Origin: Pocillopora verrucosa
Taxonomy: Eukaryota > Cnidaria > Anthozoa > Scleractinia > Pocilloporidae
Direction: 5' to 3'
Length of the DNA: 64,000 bases
Assembly: GCF_036669915.1 (NCBI RefSeq)
Contig: NC_089313.1
Span: forward strand, 4,971,585-5,035,584
Shown here: positions 3,018-57,500 of the stretch, piece after piece
Layout of the letters: each line of letters begins with the position of its first letter
Position numbering within the stretch: the first letter of the stretch is position 1
Notes under the pieces: generated by a model
Told to the model about the DNA's origin: nothing
Database searches by the model: none
The model's input: the letters and a program-made list of their open reading frames with translations, nothing else
Program-made: the position numbers and the translations under genes

Positions 3018-7816
<4,799 letters not shown>

Positions 7817-14400: not shown

Positions 14401-14463
14401 ATCCTTTCGTCCATTTTCCCCAAGGTTTCCAACATACACTTTGTATGTTCGTGGAGTCGACAT
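11447..14463 (-). CDS. SR splicing factor, SRSF3/SRSF7-like
   Basis: An SR protein that binds pre-mRNA through one RRM and recruits splicing and export factors through an Arg/Ser tail; nuclear, in speckles. Three coding exons in register: 14463-14093, 11949-11908 (only 42 bases) and 11495-11447. The joined protein is about 153 aa (human SRSF3 has 164). The RRM spans roughly residues 8-78 with RNP2 VYVGNL and RNP1 GFAFVEFD; then comes a Gly/Arg-rich linker ([16 protein letters not shown]) instead of the SRSF7 zinc knuckle, then a short RS tail ending [13 protein letters not shown]. The ATG follows directly on an acceptor (TTTCTGCAG|ATG), so a 5' UTR exon lies further right. Both junctions split an Arg codon as AG|G. 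SRSF3 versus SRSF7 orthology is not settled by the sequence. Confidence 0.93.
12132..12413 (-). mobile_element. TTAA-MITE subfamily B with internal duplication
   Basis: TTAACCCTTTCACTCCCAAG to TTAAAGGGTTAA. It is 282 bp instead of about 210 because a 70-bp internal segment is present twice in tandem (12245-12314 and 12315-12384, nearly identical). In the long SR-gene intron. Confidence 0.9.
13338..13550 (+). mobile_element. TTAA-MITE subfamily A
   Basis: Starts TTAACCCTCTTGATACTAAG and ends GTCAAGGGTTAA. Internal A blocks TTGTTAAACAAATTCTCC and TATGGAGAATAC. In the SR-gene intron. Confidence 0.85.
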
Positions 14464-14490
14464 CTGCAGAAACAAATCATTATCAATAGC

Positions 14491-23209: not shown

Positions 23210-23420
23210 TTAACCCTTTAACTCCCATGAGTGACCAAAATGGAATTTCTCCTAACAACATCAATACAGAATCAAAAAGACAAGTGATGAGAACCGAGAA
23301 AAGTATCAATTAGGGGATTACTTGTTGATCCAATACCAAATTCTCGGAGGTAACATCATGAGAATTGTATAGCAGACAGTAAGGAGAATTACTAATGATA
23401 TCTTAGGGTTGAAGGGTTAA
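23210..23420 (+). mobile_element. TTAA-MITE subfamily B
   Basis: Full-length: TTAACCCTTTAACTCCCATG to GGGTTGAAGGGTTAA. A clean example of the B consensus, about 170 bp upstream of the acyltransferase exon. Confidence 0.9.
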
Positions 23421-23584
23421 CCTTGTTCCGATTGGTTGTGATTAGTTTGGTGTTGGTTTTTTTTTTTTTTACACACAACTGAATGGGATTATTCGCATGC
23501 GAGATCTATCATTTTGTTTTTCTTTTCGATAGGGGTGGACTACACGCTAACGCTTGAAGATCGGAGTCTAACATCACTCCCAGC

Positions 23585-26500
23585 ATGAATCTTTATTGGA
23601 AATACATGGAGTCTGCTCCGTCTTTTCTTTACGCCTTGTTGTGCTTCTCTGCTATTCTGGTTTGGACTCTGTTTGCTATCCTCGCGCTGCCATTTTGGTT
23701 CTTGTTCAGAATTCTGAAATGGTTCCAAGGGGTTTGCATTACTTACTGGGGACTGGGGAAATTATTGGCTTGTCATGATGTACCCTTTCTTCACGAGACC
23801 GAGTACAACCGTAATTTTATCAATGGCCTGTTTGTCGTTGATGGGACGATTGATATGGAAGAGTTCCGTCAACTGATTATGTCCCGTGTAGTACAAAATG
23901 TCGAGGAACCTAGCTACGTACGCATGCGCAAACGTATAGTTCAACGTTACTGGCGTTACATTTGGCAAGACGAGCCGGATTTTGACATCAAAAAGCACAT
24001 TAGGCGATTAGAAGGTGGTGGCCCGCGTAGCGAAGAAGATTTGCAGAAAATGCTTGGTGAAAATTTTTCATCACCGATGCGTGAAGATATTTCTCCCTGG
24101 GAAATCCTAGTGACGCCTCTAGACCTCCCAGGGAAAGATCAGACTGCAATTTGTATAAGAATCCATCATGCAATAGGAGACGGTTTTGCTATGATTGGTC
24201 TGTTCGCCAGGCTCATGGACAAAAAGCCAGAGCTGCTTCGGGTCAAGAAACCCGTGGCCACCCCATGCGACAAACAAAAACAGGTAAAACAGGTTTTACC
24301 CTGAGATAGAGAAATTTAGTCAAACTTACGAGCAGGCCCTCAAAATTAACTCTTCGGCACGAGTGTTTCTTCGCCTGCGGGAAAGTATGAAGCCTTGAAC
24401 AACGCGAGTCGGCAAGAGGTCCTGCAAGGAGTCTGGCACTATTAGCATCATCAGTGCCAGACCCCACAAATCTCTCCTCGACACGTCTCAAATCTTCCCG
24501 GAGGCGGTGAAACGCGCGTCGTGCAGTGTTAAAAATGAGGGCCTGCTTGTAGGCTTTACACGATATGGTGACGGTGTCTTCTCCTGGCAAAAGGCCCTAC
24601 ATAGAGATCCACCAGTTTTTTGGGGCTCTTTTCGACTGTCGTTAAACCAGCAAAGTTTTACATACATGCCAATTCAAATAAAAACAAATATCTAGAGAAA
24701 CCACTAATTTAGGACTCGAATTGAAAACAAAAACTGAACACAAAGCGAAGTAAAGCAAAATTAAAGCAGTCCGGGATTACTCTCAACAATCAATTTAACC
24801 CTTTACATCCTAACATCAGTATGCATATTCTCCATACTATTCTCTATACATATCCTAATGTGCTGACAAGGAGAATTTGTTTAACAATCAAGAGCTTCTT
24901 TAGTTAGTGATCATTTCCTTTATTCTCATGATCTGAAATGAATGATTAGGCACTATTATTGTAAGGAGAAACTAGATGCTGGTCATTCTTAAGGATTAAG
25001 GGGTTTAGATAGCTCTTATGTTTGTGAAAGGGGGGCAAGGTACAAAACATGATTGCCATCATACTTTGCTTTTGATACGTGTTGAAATCTATCCCGTTCT
25101 TCGCCTTTTTATTTTGTAGGTATGGAAAGCAATTCTAACAGGTCCGTTAGCTCTTCTGAGCGTAGCACTCTCCACAGCTGACAATCCCTTCCCAGCTACG
25201 AAGATGTCGGGTGAGAAGTGTTTCAGCTGGACAAAGACTATTGACTTGGAGCTGGTGAAGGTGATCAAGGCACGAACAGGTGGCAACACATACACAATTC
25301 AATATATTTCATTTCTTACATTGAGATGATCGGCTTTGCCGGATGACATTTGAAGCTTGCAGAACAGGGTTATATTTTGGCGTTTTTCTTGCTAGCAGAT
25401 GAAAGCGCGATGCTGTAGCGAGAAAAACGCAAAGGGTTAGTCAGCGCGAGAGAGGGGGCTCTTCCCCCACGTGTGTTTCTCGCTTGATGTAGTACGACAC
25501 GTGATGTAGCTTTAAATTTTTTTTTTTGTCTAAATTAAGATGATGTTTATCGGTATATCCATCACGCATGACTCCCTCTTCGCGCTCACCTCGCGTTCGA
25601 ATGGACACGCGAATAAGCACACTTGTTCTCTAAGCTAGCGGCTGTGAAAAAAAATTAATAATCCACATCGCAATATTCTGTAATAGCATACCAGTTTTAT
25701 TTCCATCACCTTAGCTCGCTCTATGCTCTCGATCAGAAGGGACGGGTGGAGTAGCCAAGAAATACCGGTCGCAGAAATATAAGGATATTTATCAAAATTG
25801 AGTTAAACCGTTGTTCATCAAATCTGCGTTCTAATCCATCTTCAACTCCGTTCAACACTTTTTTCCTAAACCGTTGTCAAGAATCTCATGGCTAACGCTG
25901 GGGAAAAGTTAATTTACACCAAAAACCCATTGTCTCCTAGTATCTAATTTCTCCTTACAATATTACGCCTGAACCACACATTAAGGTCATGAGAGTAAAG
26001 GAAATGATCACCAAGTAATAAAGCTCTCGATTGTTCAACAAACTCTCCTTGTCAGCACGGTAGGAAATGTAATGAGAACAGTAAGGAGAATGTGCATACT
26101 GATGTTAGGGTGTAAAAAGGTTAAGAAGGTGGAACGAGTTTTCTGGATCAATCACAGAGAAATGAATAGCAAACCCAATGCAATCGCGGATTATTTTCGA
26201 CATTCAAATTGAATCTGATCATATTAATTCGTGTTTCTGCCCAGGAACGACCGTCAATGATGTTCTTTCAACCTGTTTGGCGGGTTCGTTGCGTCGCTAC
26301 CTCAAATCGCAGGGTTCAAAACACCCAGATGACATCCAGATCGCCATCACCATCAACACGCGCTCCCCTAAAGTCCTGTCGCGTGACAACATACCGCTCG
26401 AGAATCACTCCACTGGCTTGTTCTACAACCTTCCCGTGGGACTGGCTGACCCGTTTAAGCGTTTGCTAGAAACTAAACGGAGAATGGACAACTTGAAATC

Positions 26501-30276: not shown

Positions 30277-33200
30277 ATGGTGGATACGTATGACCTTTTC
30301 AGAAGATTGAGCGCGGGAGCGAAATTTAACAAAAGAAAACATCAAAATGTATCAGAAAGGGTTAAGGTGAGTTTTCATAGCATATTTTTTTTTAAGTTAT
30401 CAATTAACTACTTTTAAATGTTCATTAGATGATGCACACTGAGTCGACGAAGCCTCACGTGGTTCTTTAGACGTACCTTGGTTATCTTGTGTAATTGTTG
30501 CATAAAACTTATTCCATCCAAATAAAACACGAATATCGTCTTAAAATCGACAGAAGCTTTTCTTTCGATGCCTGTAAATGTTTTACCCTTCATCATATAC
30601 TTAACATCCTCTATATACCACGGGTGCGAAGAATATGCACAAATATTGTCAGGGTTCCATAAACAACTTTTAGATCAACTATCTTCACTCCGCCGTTAAT
30701 TTAAGAATATCGGTGAACTTCGACGTTTACGTTCCCGTGCTTACAAACCCTCCCGTGATAATTCCCCTCACAAAGAAGCTCCCTTTAAGCATAAATCTGA
30801 TTTACTGTAACATTTTAATCTTAATTAAATACTGCTGTAGCTAGCGCTTGTCCCAAATGTATTCTATTGATAATCCAATCTAAGACCTGTTGCCGAGGGA
30901 TAGCTTGTATACAGCCCCCCTTCCAGATCTTTTTTGAGGGGGTGGCTGCACACAGTGCATATAGATAACATTCACAGAATGGGAATGGCATATTTTTTAA
31001 ATATCTCTCAAGAGGATGATGAGCCCAGGCATAATTTAACACTTTTACACTGAGACATTAGTATGTATATTCTCCAAACTGTTCTTTATACATTTCATAA
31101 GGTATTGAAAGGAGAATTTGTTTAACAATCAAGAGCTCCTTTAATTGGTGATCATTTTCATTATTCTCATAACAATAATGTATGATTCAGGAGTGGTACT
31201 GTAAGGGGAAATTAGATGCTAGTCACCAGAAGGGTTCAAAAGGTTAATGTCTTTATTTTCAACTTCTGAGAATTATAATCTGTTTAAACATGTGTCATCA
31301 GGCTCTCGGTGAAGGTTCACTTGACAATGAAAATGCAGCACAGGCTCTTGACTTTTTTGGAACTTTGCGAGGAACAGAAGATGCACACCATCAACTAAGT
31401 GAAGACCATGAACTTGAGAGGAGTGATGATGACGTCAAATCAAAATGTAGGAAGCTGGAAGAAACTTCAGAAATAAAAGAGAAGAAAAAGAAAAGAAGAA
31501 GAGAGCCAACTCCAGGTGAAATTATGTCGTTTATTTGACACTTCTTTCACTAACTTGATTATGTCTGAATTAACCCTTTTACCCCCAGAAGTGATTAACA
31601 TATAACTTCTCCCCATGATTTCCATACATTATCAGGCAAACAGGTAATGAGAATCATCAAACTTGTTAAGTGAAAGTTGTTATCTTGACCTAACACCAAA
31701 TTCTCATAACTAATTTACAAGGAAATGTGAGCAGCAAGAGGGGAGAATTAGCACTCAGATCTTGAGAGTTAAAGGGTTATAGTCTAGGCTAGACTGTGGT
31801 GGTGGTGCCCCACGTGTGGTTCCAAGCTTTCAGCTCTCTTTCTAACACTGTGCAACACCAGGTGTTCTTGGTAAATCATTGTCATTATAAATTACTCCTT
31901 TTGGGGAAGCTGACAGTCTTACACAATACAAAGAGAATTCTAAACCACGAAGCATAATTTTTGCCAACAGATGAAAATCATAGAGGAAGTCAACCATTGT
32001 CAGATTCAAAGGTTAAAATTTTTGCTTCCCAAACAAATGAAAATGTCAGTGGTGATGTTGATGAAAAGAAATCCAGTGAAAGATTGGCCGAACGTCATCA
32101 AGAAAAGGCAAGTTTTCCCATGTTATAAATTACATTAAAATCATTTTAAATATTAATGTACAGCTGAAATTTTAATTTTTCTATGTTTTATAAAAAAAAC
32201 AAAGGAAATGAAATTTTAAACCATTGATGAATTTAAGTGAAACACATTTTGTACATTTTTGCTATATAATAGCATGCATGATTTATTTGTTCTCAGTAGT
32301 TTAATCCTTTTTACTCCCAAGATCTATCAGTAATTCTCCTTACTGCTTGCCATGCAATTGTTATGATGTGAGTTTGGAGAATTTTGAATTGGATCAACTT
32401 TTAATCCCCAAATTGACATTTTTATTCCTATTACTTGCCTTCTTGATATTGTTTTGATATTGTAAGGAGAAATTCCATCTTGGTCATTGATGGGCATTTA
32501 AGGGTTAACACTTTTTGTGTATGTTTTTTTAAAGCCAATTCACTTGAAGGTGAAACTAAATGCTCACTTAATTCTTCTATAATGATATCTATAGGTAAAT
32601 ATTTTGAGGCGGGCAAATCGCATTCACGTGAAGGGCTCTGATATTCCAGATCTGGCAGAAAATTTCTCAGAACTACAAGAAAGGTTGGTAGGAAAATTAG
32701 AGTGGAATTGAAGCACTAATGCTGACACAGATTTGATTCTGTTGCCTTCTTCCTTGATAGTAAAGTTTGTGCATCCTACAATTCATCTGACTTTCAGTTT
32801 GATTGGTTTGAACCCAGGAGAGACATTCAATGGTGAAGTCTGATTGTCCAAGTGAGGTTCATTATGAGGAGGGCTGTTGTTGGTAATAATGACTAACAAT
32901 TTGACAACCATAGAAGAAATCATGAGCAGTGTTGAGGCAACCCTGATGATGACTTCCACCAAGGTTTTCAAAACATCAGTCACTCAGTCATCACAACTGA
33001 CAAGAAGCCTTCTTAGAGCTAACCTCAGCCAGACAATCAGACTACACAAGGAAATTATCTGACTTGCGTTTATTTTATGTATTAACAACATGATATTTAT
33101 GCAGGTATAAACTGGCCTCTTACATGATTGAGAATGTAACCAAAAGAGGTTATCACAAACCAACTCCCATCCAGATGCAGGCTGTACCTCTTATGATCCA

Positions 33201-36200
33201 TGTAAGTGAATCTTGATTGAACCATTACTTGGTACTGTACTGTCATTATATGTTTTGGTGCAAAAACCTGTCAGCCAACTTTTGGCCAACAGATGACCAA
33301 CAGTCAGGCAATATTTGGGGGACTGTTCACCCAAATCCTGGCCAACATGGGCCCTGTAAGTGGACAGGTGGCTGACAGTCAGTAACCTGTTGGTGTTCTG
33401 CCAGTAAGTTGTCAGTATCCATTATCATACTACCTTATATATTGTCTAAACTTCAGTGGAAATGTTGGCTTCAAGATGTATTCTATCAAGTAACATAGTA
33501 ACAGCCCTCTCTCTCTTTGCATGTTGCACATTGCTAACCGACTGGTAACCTTTCGGTAGCCTGCTGGTCATATGTTGGCCAATAGCTGTCCAACAGTCAG
33601 TAGAGGGGAACTGTAGTATGTTTTAATGAAGTTTATGACTGTTTAATTTTTAGTTGACCTGCTCAGTCTATTTCAAGGATATACTTTAGCTAAATAACAA
33701 AGTTGTTGCATATACATTTAGTGATTAAGTTATTTGTAGTTTAGAATTTCTGCTGTTACTTTCTTTATAGAAAAGAGAGGTATTATGCTGTGCTCCTACT
33801 GGGTCAGGAAAAACAGCAGCTTTTATTTTACCAATTCTTTATCATTTGAAGGTAATTAAATCATTTGCAGTACATTTACAAAATACAATGAGTCAACATG
33901 ATCATAGTGATCCACCACAAGTGATCAAAAGAAATGATTCAGGAAAAAGAACACAATTAGTACATAAATTAGTACATTGTATAAAATCTTTCTTTTTGTG
34001 GTGTTATGAATAAGACTATTTTGCTTAGGCCTTCAAGAAGGCCTTGAAATAATTGCATTTTTCACAGTACTTTTCTTTTGGTTTTAGTCTTCTCGCAGAA
34101 AAGGATTCAGAGCTGTAGTGGTGTCTCCAACCAGAGAATTAGCACAACAGGTGAATTGTGATTAATATTTGTCAAATACAATGATGACAAGTCAGTAATA
34201 ATAATGATGATGGTGATGATAATGATAGTTAAATAGATTTCAATGTTATTGATGGAAAGTATCCCTGGAAGAGACATCTGTTTTAAATCAATGTAGCATT
34301 AATGTTTTGGATCCTTAAGTTCTTGTGGATTGAATAAATTTTGGTCAAAATGCTTTTAAAGAAGTTTAGTTTGAAAAGAGAATAGTATATTCCTTTGAGC
34401 AAAAATTATTGCATTGAGCAAAGAAAAATACAAATCAATCAAGTTAATTTGAAATTGTCTCAAAGGAAATGCCATTTTAATCTACAACATGGTCTTTAAA
34501 TAACAATTTGTATTCAAAATTTATTACTGAAGCCACCAATTGATAGCCTGGAAATCTGGTCTTTTGAAGAAATAGATGGTGCAGAGAAGAAACTGGATGT
34601 CATAGAGGCATGTTAACCCTTTAATTCCCAGATCAAATTTGTATTTATCCTTACTGTCAACCATACAATTCTTATAATGTTAGTTCAGAGAATTTAGTTC
34701 TGGACTAATTATCCCCAAATTGATATTTTCCTTTGTTCTCATTACTTATCTGGTTGATATTGTATTGATACTGTAAGGAGAAATTCTGTCTTGGTCACTC
34801 ATGGGAGTTAAAGGGTTAAGAGAATTTTATGAAATGACTAATGGATAGAAATTATATTTATTCTCAATTATTTGAAGATTTACCATGAGTTTTGCCACCT
34901 GTCCAATGGCCGTAAGTTTAGAATCCATCTCCTAACGAAAGCTAAAGCTTCCTCAAACAGCTTTGGATCAAAGTCTTCTCAGAGGTTTGGTAAGATTTGA
35001 AGCTATTCTGTCTCGCATATGCTCTTAAAATTTTTAGCTAAATATAACATTTTTTATTTCAAAAGGAACCTCTTGTAAATGGACTTGGGTTGTTGTTGAT
35101 TCATTGACTATCACAAGTGATCAAAATGCAATTTTTCCTGATAATCTCAATATATAATTTAGCAGACAAGTGATGAAAAACATATCAGCTCTAGGGTGTT
35201 TCACTGCAATATTAAATTCTCCAAACTAATTTAAGTAGCTGGAAGAGAAAATTAATTGAAAAATTTTCTGTTATTTTAGATATTCTTGTGACCACACCAA
35301 ACAGATTGGTACATCTGTTGTCTCAGGATCCACCAGGAATTGAGCTTCATAAGTATATCTCTTTAAGTTTATCTGTTATACAATACAGTATACAACAGGG
35401 CCCACTTTTTAAATTCACCACTGTTCCACCTTCAGTCATAAAATGGTGATTCAAAAAATGCTTAAGTCTTATTTCACTAAATTGTGATTTTGATTGCTTT
35501 TGTTGCAGTGTGGAGTGGTTAATTCTTGATGAGGCTGATAAACTTTTTGAAGAAGGCAAGGATGGATTTAGGGAACAAGTAAGATATCTGTATTTAGCTG
35601 TTTTGTTCACTCAAGAAAATTGTCTCTCTCATTTTGGTAAAAAGTCTGTACTAGAGCCAAGTCTCGTGCAACTTACCAATGAATGTTTTTTCCAAATACA
35701 GATAGCCACCATTTATCAAGCTTGTGACAAACCAGAAGTGAAAAGAGCATTGTTCAGTGCAACCATGTCCAATGGTATTGATGAATGGGCACAGATTCAC
35801 CTTGACAATGTTGTTCAAGTTACAATTGGCATCAGGTATTGTATTTCTCTCTTTCTCCTTTAAACAATCTCAGAACTCCTCTTGAATCATCAGTGATCCA
35901 AGATTCTCTTAATTCCTCTCCAGAAATTTGTTTTTTCACTAAAATCCCAAAGATGTCCTTCTAACTACCACACAGTTTCTTGCGTAGCTATATTTTATAT
36001 ATAAAATGAAACTGTGTACTATGTTGTATATACTATATACAACAAAATGTTGTATCTTAAAAAAAAAAAAAATTGTTTACCATGGCTAGAGATGACAGGA
36101 ACCGTAATAAAATCTTAGAAAAATCAGGAGCTTTCCCAGATGTTTGGGGACACAATATTTAAGCTCTTTACAAATGTTAATTTATTTCAGAAACTCTGCA

Positions 36201-39200
36201 ACCCAGACCGTAGAGCAGGAGTTACTGTTTGTTGGACAGGAGGCTGGCAAACTTCTTGCTGTAAGAGATATTGTCCAAAAGGTAAAGAGAATGATCATCT
36301 GTTGTGATATGATAAAAGTCTTTGCTGTAGTGTGGTGGTTTTTTTTTCCAACTTACTACAGTTCTTGGAAAGAACGCATTGAATGACAGTTTGTGATGCC
36401 ATGACAACCATAGCAGAATTTAGCATGGAAATTGAGTATAATGATAGAAATAATGATGATGACGATAATGATTGTAATAATAATAATAATTGTATTCATT
36501 ACAAGGTGTTATCAAATTCTTTTATGGGAAGAAAAACCCTCACAAAAAATTTTCCTCTCCCCTAACATGTGGCTTTGTAGTTCAGTTGGCAGTAGTGCCC
36601 ATCTATCATCTGGAAGAAGCAGGTTCAAATCTAGTCAAAGCTTGAATTTCTTCAGGCTTCTTCTCTTCAATTGCCAAAATTTTCAACTGGTGCACTTTTG
36701 TGGATAATTTCTTTACTTAATATTATTTTTAAACCAAAGTTTCCTTAAACCATTTAACACATATATAGGGTTTTCAATGGCTAAATTTAGCCTATTTTCT
36801 TCCAAACAGGGCTTCCAACCTCCAATGTTAATATTTGTCCAGTCAAAAGATAGAGCTAAGGAACTGTTTCATGAACTTATTTATGATGGAATCAATGTGG
36901 ATGTGATCCACTCAGACAGAACACAAGCACAGGTGAGAATCTAGTCTGGTGTTTCATTCTCTGAGCTGCTAGCCTTGCATTTGTGACTTGAGGAGAACCT
37001 TGTTCTTAACCCTTAAGACCCTGAGAGTGACCATCATTGAATTTCTCTAAATAGTAATACTGCTTAATAATTCATTAGGATTATGACGATAAAGGAAATG
37101 ATTGCAATGTTAAGAAGCTCAGAGCTGGTTTGTTTGTAAGCTGGGTAAAGATATCCTAGGGTTAGTGTGAAATCAGATTTCAGATCTAAAAGCTGTAAAA
37201 GAAAATTCAGTATAAACATTTTTTGTCTACAATTTGATAATTGGATGCTCTAAAAAAAGTAGAGAAAATTATCCCAAAAAGGGTTTTGAACAAGGAAATA
37301 AACAAGCTTGGATTAAAATTTAACCTTGGGTTAGTGCTAAGTGGCCTTTAAACAACTTGGCCCTGATGATTAACAAATTCTCATCATCAGCATCAAAGGA
37401 GATCTATAGAGAAGAGTGTGGAAAATATACATACTGATGTTGTGGTGTAAAGGATTAAATATGCTATGCTGTATTTTCTTTTTTAGAGAGACAATGTGGT
37501 GAAATGCTTCCGAACTGGAAAGGTATGTATGTTAACTATGTCAACAGCTGTTTTACTTTAATTTACATAATAAAGCATGGGATGTGCTCTATGCAAGATT
37601 ACACTTTGTGTGACAATCAAAGAGAAAATAAAGGGTCTCTGAGGTGACATAAATTTGGTTTATTAATGGTTCAGTTCTCAATTTGAACATTAGAAAAAAA
37701 TTTAGCCTGAATTTCTTTAGTTCTTTCATTATCTGTGTTAAACTTCTCCATCTTGAACAGTCTTTGTACTCTATTGGATTACACCTTATTCTTTGGTGTC
37801 CTTTTTTACCTCAGCAAACAGCAAAGAGTGACCTGTGTCTTACTTCTCCTTACAATATCATGCCTTGAATCACACGTTTAGGTCATGAGAATAAAGGGAA
37901 TGATCACTTACTTGATAAGCTCTTGATCATTAAACAAATTCTCCTTGACAGCACCACAGGATGTTTATGGAGAACAGTATGGAGGTTATGCATACTGATG
38001 TTAGGGTGTAAAGGGTTACTTTTAAATGAGTTAGCACCAAATAATTTCAACTCAGTTGCATCATTCTGTTGTTGTTGTTGTTGTTTTGACAGATCTGGGT
38101 TCTTATAGCAACTGAACTCATGGGCCGCGGAATTGACTTCAAAGGAGTGAATCTTGTGATAAATTATGATTTTCCCACATCATCAGTGGCTTATATTCAT
38201 AGAATAGGTATGAAATATTTTTAAAAACCCTTCATGAAGATCAGTATTTAGGTCTGTCAAAGACACCATATTATTTTGTGTTGGCTCCGATTCCCTTCTT
38301 TGTTTCGCAACTCTTGTCAGGAAATTTATTTATAAGAGATTAATTTGATAGGCAGACCAGCCAAGTAAATGTTAGTGAATCATTGTTAACTTGCCTCTTA
38401 TTCAGTCTGCTATTAACCCTTTAACTTCCAGAAGTGACTAACGTGTAACTTCTCTCTACAATATCTATATGTTTTCTAGTAAACGGTTGATGAGAAAACT
38501 AAAACTTGATCAACTAAATCAAGAAGAAGTTTTTATCTTGATCTTACACCAAATTCTTGCAACTAATTTACAAGGAATTGTGTAGCAGCAGGAGGAGAGA
38601 ATAAACAATCAGATCTTGGGAGTTAAAGGGTTAAGGAAAGAAAGTTATTGACCTCTAAACTAGAAGAAGTAAGAAGTGGTAAACATGTAACATTAAGATA
38701 AAAAATCAGTACATTTTCCAGAAAAAAGCTGATATGAACATTCAAACTAATCAACTGGTCAGGTAGAGGGCATTTAGAAGGGAGAACTGCTGATGATGTC
38801 TCGATATCTGACGATCAAATTCACTAGAAATCTGTTCTTGTGTCCTCAGGTAGAACAGGTCGTGCTGGTAGACCAGGAAAGGCTATCACATTTTTTACAG
38901 AAGATGATGCCACAAATTTACGCAGGTGTGCGATAAGGATATAGTTTTTCATCAACTTTACAAAAATTATTGGCTTCTTTAAATTCACCTCAGTTTATAA
39001 TTGTAGAAACTTTTGACTCTCTAACCATAGGAGTGACAAACATTTCATTTCTCCATACAATTTCACCCCAGAGTTGAACATTAAGGTTGCAAGAATAAAG
39101 GAAATGACCACCATCTAAAAGGGCTCTTGACTGTTAAACAAATTCTCCCTTCCAGCTATGGGAAGTGTGCACAGAACAGCATGGAGAATTTGCATATTGA

Positions 39201-42854: not shown

Positions 42855-45800
42855 ATGGCGCCCAACAGGTCTGAGGCAATGACGTTATCAACCAACGCTC
42901 CGCCAGCTTCAGATATAGGTACATTTGAAGGAATGCCGCTCAAATTGGAAAAAAAGTCAGTATACGCACGATGCAGCTCAGTAAGCTTAGCTGCCGAAGA
43001 AGAAAGCGTCCATCAAGTGCAGGATATCGGGAAGGAATACTATCGTTCGATAGCGTTGAATTTTAAGACCACCTCCTCAGTGACGATTCTCAAAAGATGT
43101 GCAAATCCAGACAGTCCACATTGGGAAACCTGGCCCGGCGTTTGCGCTGGCCTAGACGAAGATCCAAGGCAAAGGAAAGTAAAACAGCGCGTTGCAATCG
43201 AACCTGAGAAAAAGAATTCCAAAGAAGCCGTCGAGAATGACGACAATAGCCATTCCTTTTCACTTCGCTGGCAGCAGAAAGAGGAAATTACTTTCTTTTC
43301 ACCCGACACCGAAAACAGATGCGAAAAGAAAACGACGAAAGGGTTCGAAGTAGACGATTTTAAGACAGGTGAGTAAGTTAATCGGGAAGTGAGATAACAC
43401 AGTAAAGGTGTTTTTCGACATGATGTTTAAAGAACTACTTGTTTACTAAAGAAATTCGTGGGTGTGACGTAGCTTGAAATCCTCTGCTTTTTGTTAAAAT
43501 CGCTACAAAACATCTATCAGAGTTTGAGAACGTCTTTTCCTTTAGTTTAATTGGTGAATGTTGCGAAAGACCACGTTTTCTGTGGAATTGTTTGCGTTTT
43601 TCGTGGTTGCGTGTCAAGAATTTCTTTCTCGGTCATGTGACTTTACCATTTGGTCCCGAATTGTACATGTACAAGGGTGGATGTTCTGTGGAAACCGTTA
43701 ATCATCTGTTACATCTGAGTGAAAACCTATAAAGGAAATGAAGAGAGATCGTAGTAAATATATACAGAGTTAGCTGTATACATAATGTGGTTTAGGCCCT
43801 TCACGGCGCAAGATTATGGATTATGAATGACTGCTTTCGCTTTCTTCCAGTCATATGACTCGAAACAGGAAGTTTGTGATAATAACGTCTGGTTTCGGTG
43901 TCCGCGCATCAATTATTTGCATGAATTGCCGTTCAAAGGGCTGTCTTTGTCCCCATCGTGTGCATCAATAATTTGTTGTTTTACATTTTGATCCCTGGTG
44001 AAGTTTCTGAGGGTTTTATAATTTTTTAAGAATTTGTTTATCAGATAAAACATGGTTAAAGTTTTAATCTATTTGGTCTATTTTGTGCCTTCGCCTTTGG
44101 TTATCTTTGGTTCTAATGATGCAAGTGCAGAGAGATTAGTTATATTAGATAAGTTATTGCAGGGGAAAAAGAGGGCAGTTATGTAAGAATGAATATTTTT
44201 CATTTTTCCTAACTTTTTATCCATTGTTCAATGGAAGGTCACTGTAATTTATCAAAGTCCTTGTGCAAGGTTTTTTTTAAAACAATGTAAATATTTTTAT
44301 TTCACAGATGTAAAGGCCAAAGAGGAATTTGATTTCAGCATTTTGACGATCCCATATTCTGTACAAGAGAGTTCCATCAGTCCAGATGATTTGTTCTCAT
44401 TAGAACCTCCTTCAGCTTCATCTGAAGTTATAGAGGTTCAAGATGACACATCTACAAAAGAAGAAACAACAAATGATGAAACAGCTGAAGTAAAAGTTGA
44501 AGAAGCAGGGCAGCTTACTAAAACTGAATCAAAGCACAAAAGCATTCCAAGAAGGTTTGTATCTTGGTTTTCCCTAGGGATTCATCAGCAAGAGTGTAAA
44601 TTGGTGTGAAACAGATAGTGAAATGTTGTACAGTACTTGATTTTTACTCATTTTATACCCCCAAATTAAATCCTTTAAGTAATGAGAATGGTTTTGGAAT
44701 TTGTGCTGACATTTCTTGTGGGTACAGTTTTAATCCTTTGTAAATATTTTGTTTTAACTTGTAGGCATGCTGCTAAAAGAAAGAAGCGAAATGTTTGGTC
44801 CATCACTGTGCCTGACCCCCCTGCAGTGCAGCACAAGCAGGCAAAGAAAACATCTAAAACAGCCAAAGAAAGAAAACCAAGAAGCATCAGGAGGTGTGCT
44901 CCAAAACAGTCATGTCTTTCCTTTGAAGAGATCATCGAATCTATCAACCACATAAAACCAGCACCATCCAAGAGGAGGAAACCCAACTCCAACTTGGGGG
45001 AACCAAAAGATTCTGGTGTTGATAGTGAAGGAAGCAGTAGTGGTAGCAGTGGTGGATGCAGCAGCAACTCTGGAAGTGGCAGTGGTAGTTCATCTGGGGG
45101 GAGCAGTAGTGGTGGTGGCGGCTTTGGGGGAAAGGGAAATGCTGATGGAGATGAAGGTGATAAAAAGAAGTATCCACAGTGGTATTTCCCTGGCGAACAA
45201 CAGATTGACACACCAGGCAGAAATGAAAAGAAAAGATCTCCAGATGAAGAGAAAGATGATGAAAGTGTGGAAAAAATGGAGGAAGATTTTCCCACTACTA
45301 AGCAGTCAGGCCTCCAGATGTTCTTGCCATCCAAAGTTGATAATGCAGAACAATGTCACTGCCCTGGAGAGGAAGGAACTCATATGACCCCAACTGGAAA
45401 GGTAGTTTGCCCATTAATGTGTATTAGTACCTACTGAAGTCAATTGTTTCAGCCTAAGCTAATAGCCAGTCAATGATAATATTTTTGCCTTAAAGAAACT
45501 GGTTTAAGTTGCTATTTGTTGCATTTTACAGCATGAATGTAACTCTACCACAGACTAATCCAATTTAATTCAGTTTCAAACTTAATTGAACTCTTTATTA
45601 GAGACATGAAGAGGTTGTAATAGTCAAAGGAAATTGCAGAAACTAATGAGTTTTTATACAATGTGAAATGGCCATCCCTCTGTTCATCCTTATTGGTTAA
45701 GTATAAAGTGATTCCACTAGAAACGCAGATGTCAATGAATGATCAACTTAGTGTTACTTTGATTTTGTTTGTGAGTGTCTGTGTGCTAAAATTCCATGGA

Positions 45801-48800
45801 TTCATATTTTATTTGCAGAGTGACATCATCTTTTTCCCTCAAGATGTTCAGCATGCAAGTTACTGTTCGATTCCTGTTTGTCGTAACCAAAAATGCAAGA
45901 AAGTAAGTTGTGACCAGCATATTTAAATATGTCAGGTATGGCTATTTTGCAGTGAGGGTAATTAAAAAATAGAAGAAATAGTAATTTTGTTTCTGGTTCA
46001 TCAAAGTTCTTACAATGCAATTGAATGCATACTGTATTTACTCATGTATAAGTTGACCTTTATGACCAAAGAAAATCACCCCAAAAATTCACCCTCAACT
46101 TGTACACAAGTCATACTCAAAGACCTGACCCAAGCAATCCAAGAAATTAGCAGAACAATTGTTTGAAGTCCGTTAGGAAAATCCAGTTTACAAAACCAGT
46201 TCTAGTGTGTTCGAGGTTTGTCAGCTTAGTGACCTGGCAAATGCTGTTGTCTTGTGAGGTCTTGTTTGTCACACGCTATTCTTTGAAGTTCTTCAGTGTT
46301 CCTTTGTTCTACTAAATCTCCTTTCATACTCAACATTGAGATAAAGGTTAGTTAAGTGCAAGAAGATTTCAAATTCAATGTGATTTACAAATATTGTAAG
46401 ATACCTCTTTAGTAGATCAAAGTGTTGGTGTATTCTTAAATTGTGGTGATGTGAACAAGTACTAATAAACTTCATAGCACATGGTAACATTTTGCTCTGC
46501 AGTTTTTTTAGTTCTCTGTGTTTTCAATACATTCTCAGAAATAAGAGATAAACTTGTTGGGAAATTTTGCTTTGTCTGAATTTTACTTCTTTTATAAGAA
46601 ATGATGAAAAATCTGATTTTTGACTTGAAAATGCCAGGTTGACTTATACACAGGTTTGACTTGTACATGAGTAAATATGATAAATGTCTTTAAAAAAGAA
46701 AAAAAATTTAAAAATTTAAAAAAAAATAATAAATAATAATTTTGAACATTTTCCTGCAGGTGAAAATGGAGTTGGAGCACTTGCAAGTTCATAAAGACTG
46801 GCACCATTGTGGACGTTGTTTGATCACATGGAATATTGTTAAACAGCACGCACGTTTTTGCCATAGGTCAGGGTGTAGAGTTCCTGACTGTGAAAGCCTG
46901 AGGTAAGGTCAACAAGCTTTGAAAAAGAGTTAGTTGTATCTTAGATGTTGGAAGTTGCATTTGGACAAATGTTAGAGCATTTTTAATAGCCTAAGTGAGA
47001 AACCAGAGGTAAAATGACCAAGGAAGTAGATGCTGTTAAATCACTCAAAATTTTACACTGTAACAATATCAGTCTAGGGGAAATTTTCTTAACCTTTAAC
47101 TCCCATAAGTGATCAAGACAGAATTTCTCCTTACAATATCAATATAGTATGAAGCAGATAAGTGATGAGAGTAAAGAACAATATTAATCAGGGAATTATT
47201 AGTGGATCCAATACCAAATTTTCCAAACTAACATCACAAGAACTACCGAAGCATAGTAAGGAGAGTTACTAATGAGATCTTGGAGTTAAAACTCGGATTT
47301 CTGTACCCCTTGACATCTTGGGCATTTATCAACATTAAGGCTTGGCTGCTCAGGTTAAAAGTTGAATCTAAAGCACATTTGTTTATGATACTGTCAGCTT
47401 GCACTAAAGGAGGACCGAACAAGGATCTGTAAGTCATGAGGGTTTTTAGAGGGTGTAATCTTATGACTTAAATTTGTCATTGCAGGGAAAGCTATAAAGG
47501 TAATGGAGAACCTGTTCCTGTAAGGCAGAGAAAAATTTCTCCACCAGTGCAAGTACCAGTGCCAGCCTCACCACCATTTAACTTAGCACCTCCTGTAGCA
47601 TCAGGCTTTGAACCACCAACACCTCATCGCATTGAGGGCAAAGTGATATTCCGAGTAATGTTTAAATTTGTTTGATTAATTTAATGCTAAGGCCAGTACA
47701 AAGTCTTCAATTGATGTAGTTGTGAGGGAAAAAATTAGAGAGGCTGTTGTACATGTCCTAAGTTAGTTGAAAGTGTTTCATTACAAGGGCAACAAGTAAA
47801 TCTTTAAATTGAAAGACCAACCAAGATCATTGTTGTGGCAAACACTAGGATTGGGTCAGATGCAAACCAGCCATCATGTGGTTTTTGAAGTACACTGTTG
47901 ACACTGATAATATGATAATATTTTAATTTAAACATTGCCTCCTGAAGCATGTCCCATATCGAATTGTTCTCTTGAAGGTTTTGTGCACAAATTTCTGTCT
48001 TGCATATCTGGAACATTTGAAGCAGATATCGTTTCAGCTCAGAGGAGGTTATTTCTTAACCCTTTAACTCCCAAGATCTGATTGTTAATTCTCCTCTGTA
48101 GCTGCAACATATTTCCTTGTAAATTAGTTATGAGAACCTGGTGCTAGATCAAGATAGCAGCTTCTACCTGATAAGTTTGAATATTCTCATCACCTGTTTG
48201 CTGAAGAATGTATGGATATTGTTGAGAGAAATTTTATGTTAATCACTTCTGGGAGTTAAAGGGTTTTAAAAAATCATTTCTGGTGTCCTAAGAAACTGTG
48301 AGATTGTAAAAGATTTTATTGACTACTCGCTCTCCAACACCCAACATGCCTGAATATTAAATGAGAGAGATGGTAATTTTTTTCCCCACAGAATTCGACA
48401 GATGTGCCGAAAAATTTCTTTGTTGAACACATTGACTACTTTAAGATGGAAAGAGAGAAGCTTGGAAAGGGAGCTAATGGGGAAATTTTTGCCTGTTTTT
48501 TGACAAGCGACAGAACTAAAAAGATGGCTTTGAAGGAGGTAGGACTGTTTTGTGTGAAGTATCAATTACTTTTTGCCTACATCATCATCGTGGTGGGTCT
48601 TGATAGTAATGAAGTGAACATTAAGTGCTGGTTGTAAAAGTGATCTTCTAAGAGAGGGTTAACTCTCCCAGACTTCACTGAAAGAGAACAAGTGCCAGTA
48701 GGACTTCTGTAACCCCTTGGGTTCTAATTTTGAGGCCTTGAAGAACATTTTATTAATTTGCTGATTTGTTTTCTTCTTTTGTTGTCAGACAAGTTACTCC

Positions 48801-51015
48801 ATTAGTAGGGAGGAAGTAGAAGTGTACAAGATGCTAGGTGATCATCCACATATTGTCCCTCACTATGTAGGAACAATAAGGGACAGTCGGGGATGTGCTA
48901 ATATCTTCATGGAAAAGTGTGGTATGTTACCAGAAAGTCCTTCATTTTCATACCAATGTAACTTGCATATTAGTATATTGATAAGGTTTTACTTTTTTTG
49001 ATGTTCAATTCATTCTGTCCCAAGATCTCATCATAATTGTCCTCACTGTCTGCCATACAATTCTTGATTATGTTACTTTTAAGAATTTATTGGATCAACT
49101 AATAATCCCCCAATTGATATTTTCCTTTATTCTGATCACTTTTTGCTTTATATTGGAAGGAGAAATTCTGTCTTGGAGTTTAAAGTTAACACAACTGTTT
49201 TTGCCTCTTTCTGCAGAACAATCTCTTTTCGACTACATGGAGTCAATATTGAAGAGACGATTGACATGTGGGGAAGCCATGTATTACTGGCTTCAGATCC
49301 TTGCTGCAGTTGATTACTTGCACAACTTGGAAGTTCCAATAATTCATAAAGACATCAAAGGTAAGAACGCTGAGACAACAATAGAGTAAAACTTCATTTC
49401 TGTCAGAAACTCCATGTCTTAAAGTAACTTTACAGTACAGGTCAAAGAAGTAACTAGCTTTTTAATGACGTTTTGATGGAAACAAGACAGGCATCAGTGA
49501 TAGCGCCAGAAATGTATCAGCATGTTATGATACTGAAATTAATGTCGTATGAATTGTGATCTTTCTTTTCAGCCAAAAATGTACTGTTGGCCGTAGAAGG
49601 TTCACGGGCCAAACTGGCTGATTTTGACGCGGCAAGGAGGTTGCATCATGAACTCACTGAAGCTGGTCTGAAACCCCTTGGAACAAGGGGCTTTGTTTCT
49701 CCTGAGGTGAGATGTGGTATTCAAGATAATGATTGATTAAAATGAATTGTTCAAGAAAAAGTTTGGAAGGCTTTTTCCTTTCTTGATTCATTATTTATTT
49801 TTGAGTGAGTCAAGTGAGTCCATTTTCTCAGCTCTCTCAATTGTTGATGGGTAAACCAGAACTAGATTAAGATCCAAGGTGATAAAAATGGACAAGATCT
49901 TTGTTTGCTTCAAAGCATTTGGATAATTTTACTTTATTCATGAACAAAGTGTGTTTCAAAGGCCCTGTTAAAGCAAACAAGCTGTTTCATTTTCCATTTC
50001 ATTCAAAAACGGGTTCAGTTTGGAGAATGTGTGACTGCTATACAGAATAAAAATTTTCATTTCATAGTTATCAAGCACAAATGAACTGAAAGACCCTGTT
50101 GCTAAATAAAACAAGGGAAAACAAAGATTAATGGGGTCCTGTGGTGCCAATAATTATTTTTTGTTACTTTAAGTGCAACAAAAAAGTGAGTGACATTTGT
50201 TGTAATTCTGAAGGTTTTGAGACAGAAACCTCATGGCAGGCCAACTGATATCTACACTTTGGGATGTTTCTTATTGAACTGATAGTGGGAGTTCCATCCA
50301 AAGAATCCTTGCAGGAACAGGTAAGCTTTAATGATCAGTGAGCTATAGTATTTGGGAAAGCTTGGAGAGTTTTTTGTATAACAGTTTGCTCTGATCATCA
50401 AGGAGGCTTTCAGCTTTGATACTGTTAAGGAGAAAGGGACATTTGGAATTGGTTTTTTTTTTGTTTGTTGTGTTTTGTTTTTTTTGTTCTCCTTAAGTGG
50501 TTAAAAACTGTTTTTTTGAAAGATCAAGTTTGCCATTGCATTCCCTAGATTAAACCTTTGAATGTATTTTTGGAAATTGTGGACAGTAGGGAGGCACTCA
50601 TGTTTAGTTACTGGTTCCTGCATTATATATGATGTAGCTCTTAAAGCTTTGTTCAACTTTCCTGTCTCTTACCAAATAAACTTTCTTTTTTTTTTCTTTG
50701 GGGACAGATCAACAAGCTAAGACAGTTTAATCAAGAACGTGGACAGTTGGTATTTGACTGTACAAAGGTAAGTCTGAGATAACTACTCTCTATTCATATT
50801 TCAAATAATTTTGATTGATAATTGCAACATTTTAGCATAACTATAACAGGGGGGGATGGGCTGGACAGGGAAGAGCTCCTCAATAACACAAGTTATTTTC
50901 ATTTTTTAATTCTCGTAGTCTAGTGTAGTGGTATTTTCTTTGGTAATAGAGTAGTGTAATGTAAAGTTGTGCATGTAGAATTGGTGATGTATCTTGCGTA
51001 CTTGTAAAAACTGTA

Positions 51016-51050
<35 letters not shown>

Positions 51051-51698
51051 ATAAACTATAACAAGTCTGGATCTGGGAATGAGGCTGAGTAATGAGACAT
51101 TATGAACTTATCATTCCTCTCTATATATGAATGAATATGGAGGTGTAATCATTCAACCAACCTTCATGTCTTTCGCAGGCCAGGAATATAGTAGTCCAAA
51201 CATTGTGAACTTCAATTCATTGCTCAACTTGACAATTACTAGTGATTTGAGAGTGTGAATCGAATGATTAACCCTTTAACCCCAAAGAGTGACTAGCATT
51301 TAATTTCTCCTTACAATCTCACCCCTGAATCACACATCAAGGTCATGAGAGTAAAGGAAATGATCACCAACTGAAGAAAAAAAAAAAAAAAAAAAAAGCT
51401 GTTGATTGTTACACAAATTCTCCTTGTTGGCACCTCCTTAGGGAATGTATGGTCCTCTCTCAGGATGAAATTCTTTCTTATGGATCTCTTCATTTTCTTT
51501 CACCTCTCTCTACAATATCTTTGGTTTTTTTCTTACATGTAGCGGTAAGCTTATCTGCACTATTTACGCAAAGAATTGAAATACATTTCACCATCATTGT
51601 CTTTTCAGGAGAACCCAGAGGAGCGGCCAACTGCACGTAGTTTGCTGCAGCGGCCAGTCATCCAGGAATTTATGTCCGGAGTGCCCATGGAACACTAA
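42855..51698 (+). CDS. TAZ zinc-finger protein kinase, frameshifted near 3' end
   Basis: Thirteen exons: 42855-43368, 44308-44554, 44765-45401, 45819-45902, 46760-46902, 47486-47654, 48392-48538, 48789-48921, 49217-49360, 49573-49706, 50214-50320, 50708-50767, 51609-51698; all boundaries are GT-AG with matching phases. N-terminal 466 residues are disordered, with a DSGVDS site and a Ser/Gly tract. A TAZ-type zinc finger (about 478-542) follows: HASYC, CRNQKC, HHCGRC, HARFC, CRVPDC. After a Pro-rich linker comes a kinase domain: LGKGANGE loop, lysine in MALKE (646), HKDIKAKN (735-742), DFD (756-758) for DFG, SPE for APE. Exon 11 has 107 bases where 108 are needed: the frame as given stops after DIYTLGCF, while the next frame continues ELIVGVPSKE into exons 12-13 and ends NPEERPTARSLLQ...MEH. 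That points to one missing base (T run near 50267) and an intended 869 aa, against 806 as read. NIPs resembling NIK/MAP3K (HIVPHYVGTIRD, NIFMEK) are weak. Substrates unknown. Confidence 0.88.
46030..46681. mobile_element. 650-bp non-autonomous transposon with terminal inverted repeats
   Basis: The left end TACTGTATTTACTCATGTAT, then AAGTTGACC, is mirrored at the right end by TGACTTGTACATGAGTAAAT. The TIRs are about 28 bp. It sits in intron 4 of the TAZ-kinase gene. No transposase; the superfamily is not assigned. Confidence 0.7.
47089..47290 (+). mobile_element. TTAA-MITE subfamily B
   Basis: TTAACCTTTAACTCCCATAA to GAGATCTTGGAGTTAAA; the right GGGTTAA is lost. Intron 5 of the TAZ-kinase gene. 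Confidence 0.82.
48056..48269 (-). mobile_element. TTAA-MITE subfamily C
   Basis: TTAACCCTTTAACTCCCAAG to GGGAGTTAAAGGGTTTTA; intron 6 of the TAZ-kinase gene, upstream of the first kinase exon. Confidence 0.85.
49005..49189 (-). mobile_element. TTAA-MITE subfamily B, eroded
   Basis: CCCAAGATCTCATCATAATT to GTTTAAAGTTAA; intron 8 of the TAZ-kinase gene. Confidence 0.75.
51268..51449 (+). mobile_element. TTAA-MITE subfamily A with poly-A expansion, truncated
   Basis: Starts TTAACCCTTTAACCCCAAAG. A run of about 22 A at 51376-51398 interrupts the GAAGAAGCT block, and the right end is missing. Last intron of the TAZ-kinase gene. Confidence 0.85.
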
Positions 51699-54508: not shown

Positions 54509-57500
54509 TCAGTGCTTTGGCAACTTCAGGAGGTTGTCTGTAAGTGATGCACTCTGTGTTGGTGTGGAACTGTGATCCTTTGGTGTTGCAGGGGTGGACT
54601 GCTGAACATGAACAGGGGTAGAGCTGGCTGATCGTGGATATGATGGCGATGGTGTATAACTTGCACGTAATGATTTGTCAGTTCCTGTTCTGATTCCAAG
54701 TCTTTGTGAGGCCAGCCTTTGCGCAGCAGGTGACATTTGCCCTAAACGATCCACAGTGTTCATATGTTTTGGACTCCTGCATAACAAAGTTTAAAACACT
54801 TAGTAACAGGAGAGCACAGCTCTCCAATCATAGTATTATTGCTGTGCAGGGATTTGTTTCAGTTCACCTCCATAAGCCTATAACTCTTAAGAGTGACTTG
54901 CATCTAATTTATCCTTAGAATATAAACCCTTAATCAAACATTAAGATCACAAGAATAAAAGGACAAGATCACCATCTAAAAGGCTCTTGATTGTTAAACA
55001 AATTCTCCACAAAAGCATCTTAGGAAAGGTATGGAAAACAGTATAGAGAACATGTTAAAGAGTAAAGGAGGATAATGATAATAAATCAACAACATAGAAA
55101 AAAAAAAATGGTTTGTAAATTTTTAAAGTAAAGTGAAAAAATTATACCACAGCATGGCCCTGTCAGGAATAATATTCTGTCTTAAATTGTTTAGCTTTTT
55201 TTACCATTCACTACATCATCTCCCCACCTGCCAATCAATGCTGTTGCCCTGGCTAAAGCATCTCTTCTTTTCTGACGATGTTTTCTGTTGACTTTGTCAG
55301 CCAGGGCCAGTCCTAACTGGTCCCTTTTTTTAGGTTCTGGCATTTTAAAGGTTGGGCCAGGGGTGGCAGTTATTGGTGTATCACCTCCATCCAATCGGAA
55401 AGGAGTTCCTTCAATGCTGCCCCAAGTCATTAGCGGTGATGCATCTACACCTGCATGAAACCAAAGTACCATCAAAGTATTCTGGAATTCTTATGCACAA
55501 GAATTGTTCTCTTAATAAAACAAGAGACAAAAAAACCTTTTTCTGTTTTCATTTAGAACAGGTGTTTATCATTTTATGAAAATGAGTTGACTATAGGCCA
55601 ATTAAGAAACTTTGTGAAAATTTTCAATTTTGATGATTCAAGGGATACATTTTTCAAAAACTTTTGGCAATAAGACAAACCCCCTAAAATTTTCCAGAAC
55701 TGAAAAAAAATAGCTCAGCTTGTAGGCTGTTGTTTTGTGTAAGTACTATACAGAGTCATTTCTGGTTACAGGAAACATACTTTACCTGTGTCAACCAGTC
55801 AAAAATTCTCTCCACTACATCTTCACTCTCCAATAACTCAAAAACTTGTCTATAATGTGTAATATTGTAATTTTTGCCTTTAAAAAAAACCTTTTATCAC
55901 ATACTTACTTGCTTGCTGTTATACCAAACCATGATAAGACATGATAATCTCAGTCAGATTTGGCTCGAGTTAATAATTTGCTTCCTCAATCATTATTTGT
56001 CAGGTGTTTTGTTTTTGTTTGTTTTTACATAATAAATGACCTTGGTAAAAGGTGCTAAGCCTCCGTAAAAAAAAAAATTCAATTACCTGGAGCAGGTGAG
56101 GGTGTGGCAACAAAACCATACCCATTCACTCGTGGAGTTTCACCAGCACCTTGGATCTGCCCATCTACTCCAACTTTGCCTTGTTTTGCAGCTAGACGAC
56201 TTGCTGCTTCAGCAGCAGCAGCCAACTTATTATCACAAGAATCATTAGGAAATGGATCCCTTTTAAATCTACTGTTTTCATGCTGTATTTGCTGTCTTTT
56301 AGTAAACTTTCCCTCTATTTTCTCAGTAACAGAAAGCTCAACGCCATCAGGGTAATACATCAGAGCATTTTTGTTGGTGTAATTCCATGTCTCAATCATT
56401 GATGGTCTCTCCTCATTTTTGAATTGATCACCATTTTCAGGAGCTGGTAAAGCAAGAGTTTTCTCTCTCCTCTCTTTCTGTTCTAGTTCTTTCTCATATA
56501 GCCACTTATATTTTTCTCTGTGTTTTTGGGCAGCAGTGTCCATGATCTGTTCAAAGGAAGCATTATCTTCACTGGTGTTCTTTACAAGAAACTTGTCTAG
56601 TGATAAGTCGGAATCCTGTTTCTTACTCTCTGACTTGTCACCTGCTAAGTGATTTCCTGTCGGAGCACCACTAGTCTCGCTGTTATCTGATGTCATTGTA
56701 CCTGAGGGTGCTGGTGTTCCTTGAATAGTACTGGGAGTGTCAAATGTAGCTGGTGTAGCTGAAAGTAAAAAAAGAAACAACCTCCTTTAAATACATGCAA
56801 ACTGTAAAATAGTTAATCTGGTCTAATGAAAATCAATGTTTTGTTTTTGCCATAATATGTTACTTTCAGAGTCTACCACCACTTTCAAGACCTCTAACCA
56901 ATCTCTACTTAGCCTGAAGCAGGCTATCATTATTAGGTTTCACTTTACAGCCCCTCTCTGGGCACTGCCACCTATTACAACATCTGCAGCCACTTATGGT
57001 AAAAGTCATTACAACTGTTGTGTTGTTATATGAATGTTTGGATAAGAGTATACCTGACACTTCTAAAATGAAAGAAAAGCCATCATCAGATATTAAGTAA
57101 CTGTCTCTGAGGATGACTTCTACTATTTCTATTGTTCAAAACAAAGGTCACTTTCAGTAAACAACAGTTACTTCCAGGACAGATGATCACATCTCACTAT
57201 TAGCCAACAGTCCACTCTTATGCTACCCCCCCTGTTTTTGTTTCATACATTAACTGATATAGTGATGGAGGCTCAAAATAATGCATCAGCGGGGGGTATA
57301 AGAACATAGTTTACTTTTATCGAGTGAGTTGATAATGTACAATAAGCTCTGTAAAGAGTTTCTGAAGCTGACCATTCCAGCACCTGCCCTTTGTAAGAGC
57401 AAGCAGAGGAATTGTGATTAATATCCACTCTGAGAACAGGCTAATACTCAAAATGTCAGCTCTAAAAAATCTTTACGGAGGCCAATTTACATTATCAACC

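Follow-up and report, generated by a model that had tools for sequence, protein, structure and literature searches.

A TAZ2-type zinc finger joined to a protein kinase domain in one gene of the stony coral Pocillopora verrucosa and its relatives

Through its TAZ2 domains, which act as hubs, CBP/p300 recognizes many transcription factors. A TAZ domain also occurs outside CBP/p300, in the plant BTB-TAZ (BT) proteins, which to our knowledge contain no kinase. Here we describe a gene of the stony coral Pocillopora verrucosa in which a TAZ2-type finger is placed ahead of a protein kinase domain, located in a stretch of 64,000 nucleotides that was analysed as a whole (contig NC_089313.1, positions 4,971,585 to 5,035,584; hereafter the window). 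The finger shares its predicted fold, the order of its three zinc sites and its basic charge with CBP/p300 TAZ2 (PDB codes 1f81, 3io2 and 2ka6), but the surrounding architecture is different. In CBP/p300, TAZ2 is accompanied by HAT, bromodomain, KIX and ZZ domains, none of which was found in the window protein, where the Pfam scan returned kinase families and TAZ only; a BTB domain likewise gave no Pfam match. The coral finger is furthermore split by a phase-0 intron, whereas the CBP-like TAZ2 of the same genome lies in one open frame. For the p300/CBP architecture and gene-family definitions, reference is made to the corresponding parts of PMC5560861.

One fused protein carries both the TAZ finger and the kinase, which we regard as practically certain. 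A 13-exon model rebuilt from the window sequence has GT-AG borders at all 12 introns, spans 8.8 kb and yields a joined protein of 869 residues, with one exon 11 codon taken as X (Table 1). The first-pass annotation of the window had proposed that the two domains belong to one gene with GT-AG junctions of matching phase; the junctions do fit, and the layout is borne out by database relatives. A search with residues 440–869 against 5.8 billion proteins gave 58 matches: the close relatives P0001–P0011, with E 2.6e-222 to 5.7e-65, followed by other kinases, which start at E 2.9e-12. P0059 was added by a profile search (88 proteins), in which other kinases start at E 3.9e-18. Complete TAZ and kinase domains are present in nine of these 12 relatives (P0001–P0005 and P0007–P0010), while P0006 (Stylophora) and P0059 (Montipora capricornis) combine the kinase with a partial TAZ only. 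The relatives align across the exon junctions from TAZ to kinase. Five of the nine proteins with the full layout (P0001, P0002, P0003, P0005 and P0007) come from contigs of 2879–4439 bases (source label lgn), best read as spliced RNA because the window gene takes 8.8 kb and 12 introns.

Seven relatives are named, and all are from stony corals: Oculina patagonica, Stylophora pistillata (two), Montipora foliosa, Montipora capricornis, Acropora cervicornis and Acropora muricata. The layout thus recurs in several stony corals. No member outside stony corals was found among the named relatives in three protein searches (58, 88 and 7 proteins), but this is weak evidence, because a hit requires five-residue words in common with the query, scoring was limited to 7992 and 7989 candidates in two of the searches, and known members were missed (P0009 and P0010 by the 88-protein search, P0007–P0010 by the 7-protein search). 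No description of a TAZ-bearing kinase was found in the literature searched, outside which most subscription papers lie, and to that extent the architecture, made of two known domains, is new.

The identification of the finger depends on the family as a whole. The zf-TAZ model (PF02135) matches the joined window protein at residues 476–538 with E 2e-4, where the first-pass annotation had placed a CBP/p300-like finger at residues 478–542. Of the two Pfam families it expected in the joined protein, PF00069 is found above its cut-off, whereas the PF02135 match stays below the curated one (22.1 versus 25 bits). As the window protein taken alone is sub-threshold, the TAZ assignment draws on family evidence: 11 of the 12 members aligned reach E≤1 against PF02135, with 6.8e-6 as the best value, and the 12 ligand positions of the three zinc sites are invariant in the 11 sequences of the TAZ alignment (A6), which leaves out P0006 and P0059, both without complete zinc sites. 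In the database's own labels, PF02135 is assigned to three of P0001–P0011 (P0002, P0005 and P0011). A six-frame PF02135 search of the coral's own genome gave four matches without the window locus, where the finger is intron-split. Structure prediction, which had been suggested as a check, gave a four-helix TAZ2 fold, closest to TAZ2 rather than TAZ1, with a basic charge, and the PDB matches are TAZ2 structures with titles that name STAT1, p53, p63, p73 and MEF2. We therefore assign the finger, as a high-confidence prediction, to the p300/CBP TAZ2 type.

The kinase assignment made from exons 7–13 is borne out by a PF00069 score of 126.3 bits (cut-off 31.7). The β3 lysine, the aspartate of the HxD motif, the asparagine and the metal-binding aspartate of the DFG motif are invariant in all eight kinase domains of the kinase alignment (A7), and because of this the kinase is likely to be active. 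The closest solved domains are those of STE-like Ser/Thr kinases (MST1/2, ASK1, MAP3K2 and NIK) and of NEK1, from which the coral kinase differs by HKD for HRD, found in 8/8 sequences of A7, and by DFD for DFG. Among the best 60 of 89 profile matches, MST1 (8e-28), ASK1 (3e-27), NEK1 (4e-27), MAP3K2 (2.6e-26) and NIK (5e-24) score too near one another for any of these family names to be accepted, and identity to solved kinases is low (20–28% in the 50 rows listed). An NCBIfam scan returned prokaryotic protein models only, those listed being far below their cut-offs, and the kinase part of the structure model is of poor quality.

The region N-terminal of the finger is mostly predicted to be disordered, with 577 of the 865 residues of P0001 below a predicted local distance difference test (pLDDT) score of 50. 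Within residues 1–469 the best conserved eight-residue windows, overlaps dropped, are KEAVENDD, VDNAEQCH and GEPKDSGV. The first (43221–43244, residues 123–130) is the top conserved island, and 11 of the 12 proteins aligned have its VENDD. GEPKDSGV contains the start of a DSGVxS motif, overlooked in the first-pass annotation, that is found in nine of the 12 (the window protein, P0001–P0005, P0007, P0008 and P0011) and is absent from P0006, P0009 and P0010. DSGxxS is the β-TrCP recognition motif in IkB and β-catenin. The coral motif conforms to the DSGxxS of SCF/β-TrCP substrates, the likeness lying in the motif sequence itself, and a role as degron is about evenly balanced with its having none.

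When the coral's own genome (353 Mb, 52 contigs) was searched with P0002, scoring covered 53 of 153 candidates, and one locus combined the N-terminus with TAZ and kinase. Tblastn with P0002 matched the family nowhere else in the window, and 20 stretches covering the 100 kb that flank it on each side revealed no local duplicates. The next kinase match of the genome search (C10, E 3.4e-14, 30%) was rejected as a source of the family; it looks NEK-like by eye and has HRD and DFG. In a FastTree phylogeny the window protein groups with Stylophora P0006 (support 0.855), and P0011, P0001 and P0002 form their sister group (0.991). The two Stylophora members are both on contigs of 81,293 bases, presumably one contig. 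The tree places P0001 and P0002 with Stylophora, P0003 with Oculina and P0007 with Montipora, while P0005 is unplaced.

A TAZ finger is present in several genes of this coral. The CBP-like TAZ2 (L002, C14:8.91 Mb) owes its name to visual inspection of its surroundings, which are ZZ-like and Gln-rich. Two further frames, L003 and L004, are about 14 kb apart, and have a finger like that of the coral kinase, but differ by the absence of CBP features and of a kinase in the frames read, and by an HCCC ligand set at site 2. The family profile gives 34.5 bits for L004, 27.1 for L003 and 20.4 for the CBP-like TAZ2. Derivation of the kinase-linked finger from this coral's CBP is not supported, as judged by these profile scores only.

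Our best explanation, to which we give an even chance, is a family of probably nuclear Ser/Thr kinases of stony corals with a TAZ2 finger ahead of the kinase that docks on activation domains. The nuclear location is suggested by N-terminal basic stretches, noted by eye, and by the TAZ finger. In such a mechanism the basic TAZ2-like finger would bind transcription factors at their acidic activation domains and thereby bring the kinase to them, and the kinase would either phosphorylate the bound factors or compete with, and displace, CBP/p300. Phosphorylated DSGVxS could then lead to SCF/β-TrCP-type destruction, which would make the protein short-lived and controlled by signals. The use of TAZ for activation-domain docking, argued by analogy from fold and charge, could go either way.

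Five observations weigh against this explanation. First, P0006 is a paralogue with a decayed TAZ. Second, the Stylophora model P0011 ends with VIFRVMF in intron 6, and thus has TAZ without kinase. When exon 6 of the window gene is read into intron 6 (47655 onward), VIFRVMFKFV followed by a stop is obtained, and a TAZ-only product with this ending may therefore be common to the two corals; as a conserved isoform it is represented by P0011 only. Because fused forms are the rule among relatives, P0011 suggests either that a TAZ-only product is made in addition or that the gene model is incomplete. Transcripts ending between exons 6 and 7, named by the first-pass annotation as evidence against a single gene, thus have a partial counterpart in this Stylophora model, against nine of 12 relatives that are fused. 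Third, site 2 has the zinc ligands HHCC instead of the HCCC of CBP/p300 TAZ2, with histidine for cysteine at one position. Fourth, the glycine of DFG is not kept, DFD being present in 8/8 sequences of A7 and in the window. Fifth, exon 11 has no single open frame: it reads VLRQKPHGRPTDIYTLGC in one frame and FLIELIVGVPSKESLQEQ in another, the frame of FLIELIVGVPSKESLQEQ is carried on by exons 12 and 13, and tblastn with P0002 matches the exon in two pieces (50211–50276 in frame 3 and 50255–50323 in frame 2). There is therefore a one-base frameshift at about 50265–50272, due either to an error in the assembly or to a genuine change of one base. The first-pass exon model holds for its junctions but had missed this break. 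A more elaborate version of the activation-domain reading, in which a kinase invented by stony corals sits directly on activation domains by means of a borrowed co-activator finger, phosphorylates the factor and at the same time competes with CBP/p300, is destroyed through an IkB-like DSG switch, and is antagonized by a TAZ-only product ending in intron 6, is speculative, and we consider it rather doubtful.

The finger could alternatively have been captured as a compact zinc-bound module that serves another partner, either in regulation or dimerization of the kinase or in binding one coral-specific protein. This is possible, but clearly less probable than docking on activation domains. The altered ligand set at site 2, the preference of the family profile for L004 and L003 over the CBP-like TAZ2, and the persistence of P0006 with its decayed TAZ are consistent with such a role, but the finger has kept its basic charge and a fold closest to TAZ2, a domain known to bind activation domains, as reflected in the titles of the PDB matches.

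Less probable still is gene decay in the window copy, which the exon 11 frameshift would have disrupted, while its relatives in other corals work. Apart from the frame change itself, the top identity to the window protein in the 58-protein search is 75%, so that the matches include no close counterpart of the same species or genus. However, 12 of the 13 exons are otherwise open, all 12 introns are canonical, the TAZ and kinase residues are well conserved, and the genome search found no other locus of this kind. One-base differences are, moreover, a frequent assembly error.

It is also unlikely, to a slightly greater degree, that the TAZ parts serve mainly as competitors of CBP/p300, in the form of TAZ-only products ending in intron 6 or of a kinase made inactive by DFD. 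The ending of P0011 coincides with the intron 6 reading of the window, and DFD is a constant feature of A7, but so are the β3 lysine and the catalytic residues, and P0011 represents one gene-model cluster from one species that may be a prediction artefact. Wrong joining of two neighbouring genes, a gene-model artefact to which the end of P0011 between the two halves might point, is ruled out by the nine relatives with both complete domains in one protein, five of them on RNA-sized contigs, and would be conceivable only if all of these contigs were assembly chimeras.

The neighbouring genes in the window look ordinary by Pfam (Table 1). A frame at 54509–54790 on the reverse strand presumably resembles CDC5L; a 75-residue piece of it gave no Pfam match. 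The window also contains an interspersed element of about 200–220 bases with inverted ends like TTAACCCTTTAACTCC, which looks like a miniature inverted-repeat transposable element (MITE); ends of this type have 29 matches with at most three mismatches, versus 0.93 expected from shuffles.

Table 1. Coordinates of the TAZ-kinase gene and of other features (window positions unless a locus is named)
Feature	Position	Strand	Description	Basis
Exon 1	42855..43368	+	start ATG; disordered N-terminus, conserved islands PGVxxGLDED and KxAVENDD	exon model, conservation
Exon 2	44308..44554	+	disordered N-terminus	exon model
Exon 3	44765..45401	+	disordered, basic, Ser/Gly-rich; conserved FLPSKVDNAEQCH close to its end	exon model, conservation
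Exon 4	45819..45902	+	TAZ finger zinc site 1	exon model, Pfam, alignment
Exon 5	46760..46902	+	TAZ finger zinc sites 2 and 3	exon model, Pfam, alignment
Exon 6	47486..47654	+	Pro-rich linker, last residues KVIFR	exon model
Exon 7	48392..48538	+	kinase G-loop (GKGANG), β3 Lys (ALKE)	exon model, Pfam
Exon 8	48789..48921	+	kinase	exon model
Exon 9	49217..49360	+	kinase; catalytic loop starts with HKDIK	exon model, kinase alignment
Exon 10	49573..49706	+	kinase; KNVLL, DFD for DFG, SPE for APE	exon model, kinase alignment
Exon 11	50214..50320	+	kinase; one-base frameshift at about 50265-50272 in this assembly	exon model, tblastn
Exon 12	50708..50767	+	kinase; frame is the one after the shift	exon model
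Exon 13	51609..51698	+	C-lobe end of kinase and stop codon	exon model, tblastn
DSGVDS, β-TrCP-type DSGxxS motif	45009..45026	+	residues 336-341	DSGVxS conservation
TAZ2-type zinc finger	45846..46891	+	residues 476-538; split by phase-0 intron 45903-46759
Protein kinase domain	48452..51659	+	residues 619-857, exons 7-13	PF00069 E 1.9e-36
RNA cap guanine-N2 methyltransferase	3018-4331	-		Pfam
RNA-recognition motif (RRM) protein	14089-14490	-		Pfam
Wax ester synthase/DGAT-like protein	23558-24304	+		Pfam
DEAD-box helicase	35450-36386	+		Pfam
MITE-like copies (examples)	48056-48267, 38413-38634, 34613-34819, 31570-31780, 23210-23420
L003 TAZ frame	L003 1501-1701, C14:6765435-6765635			42.5 bits, above Pfam TAZ cut-off 25
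L004 TAZ frame	L004 1501-1701, C14:6751645-6751845			38.3 bits, above Pfam TAZ cut-off 25

A TAZ-bearing kinase, if the activation-domain reading is true, would couple phosphorylation with the recognition of activation domains in one protein. Because the named carriers are stony corals and a single locus was found in this genome, it would offer a tractable, lineage-specific regulator, for example with possible roles in stress or symbiosis responses.
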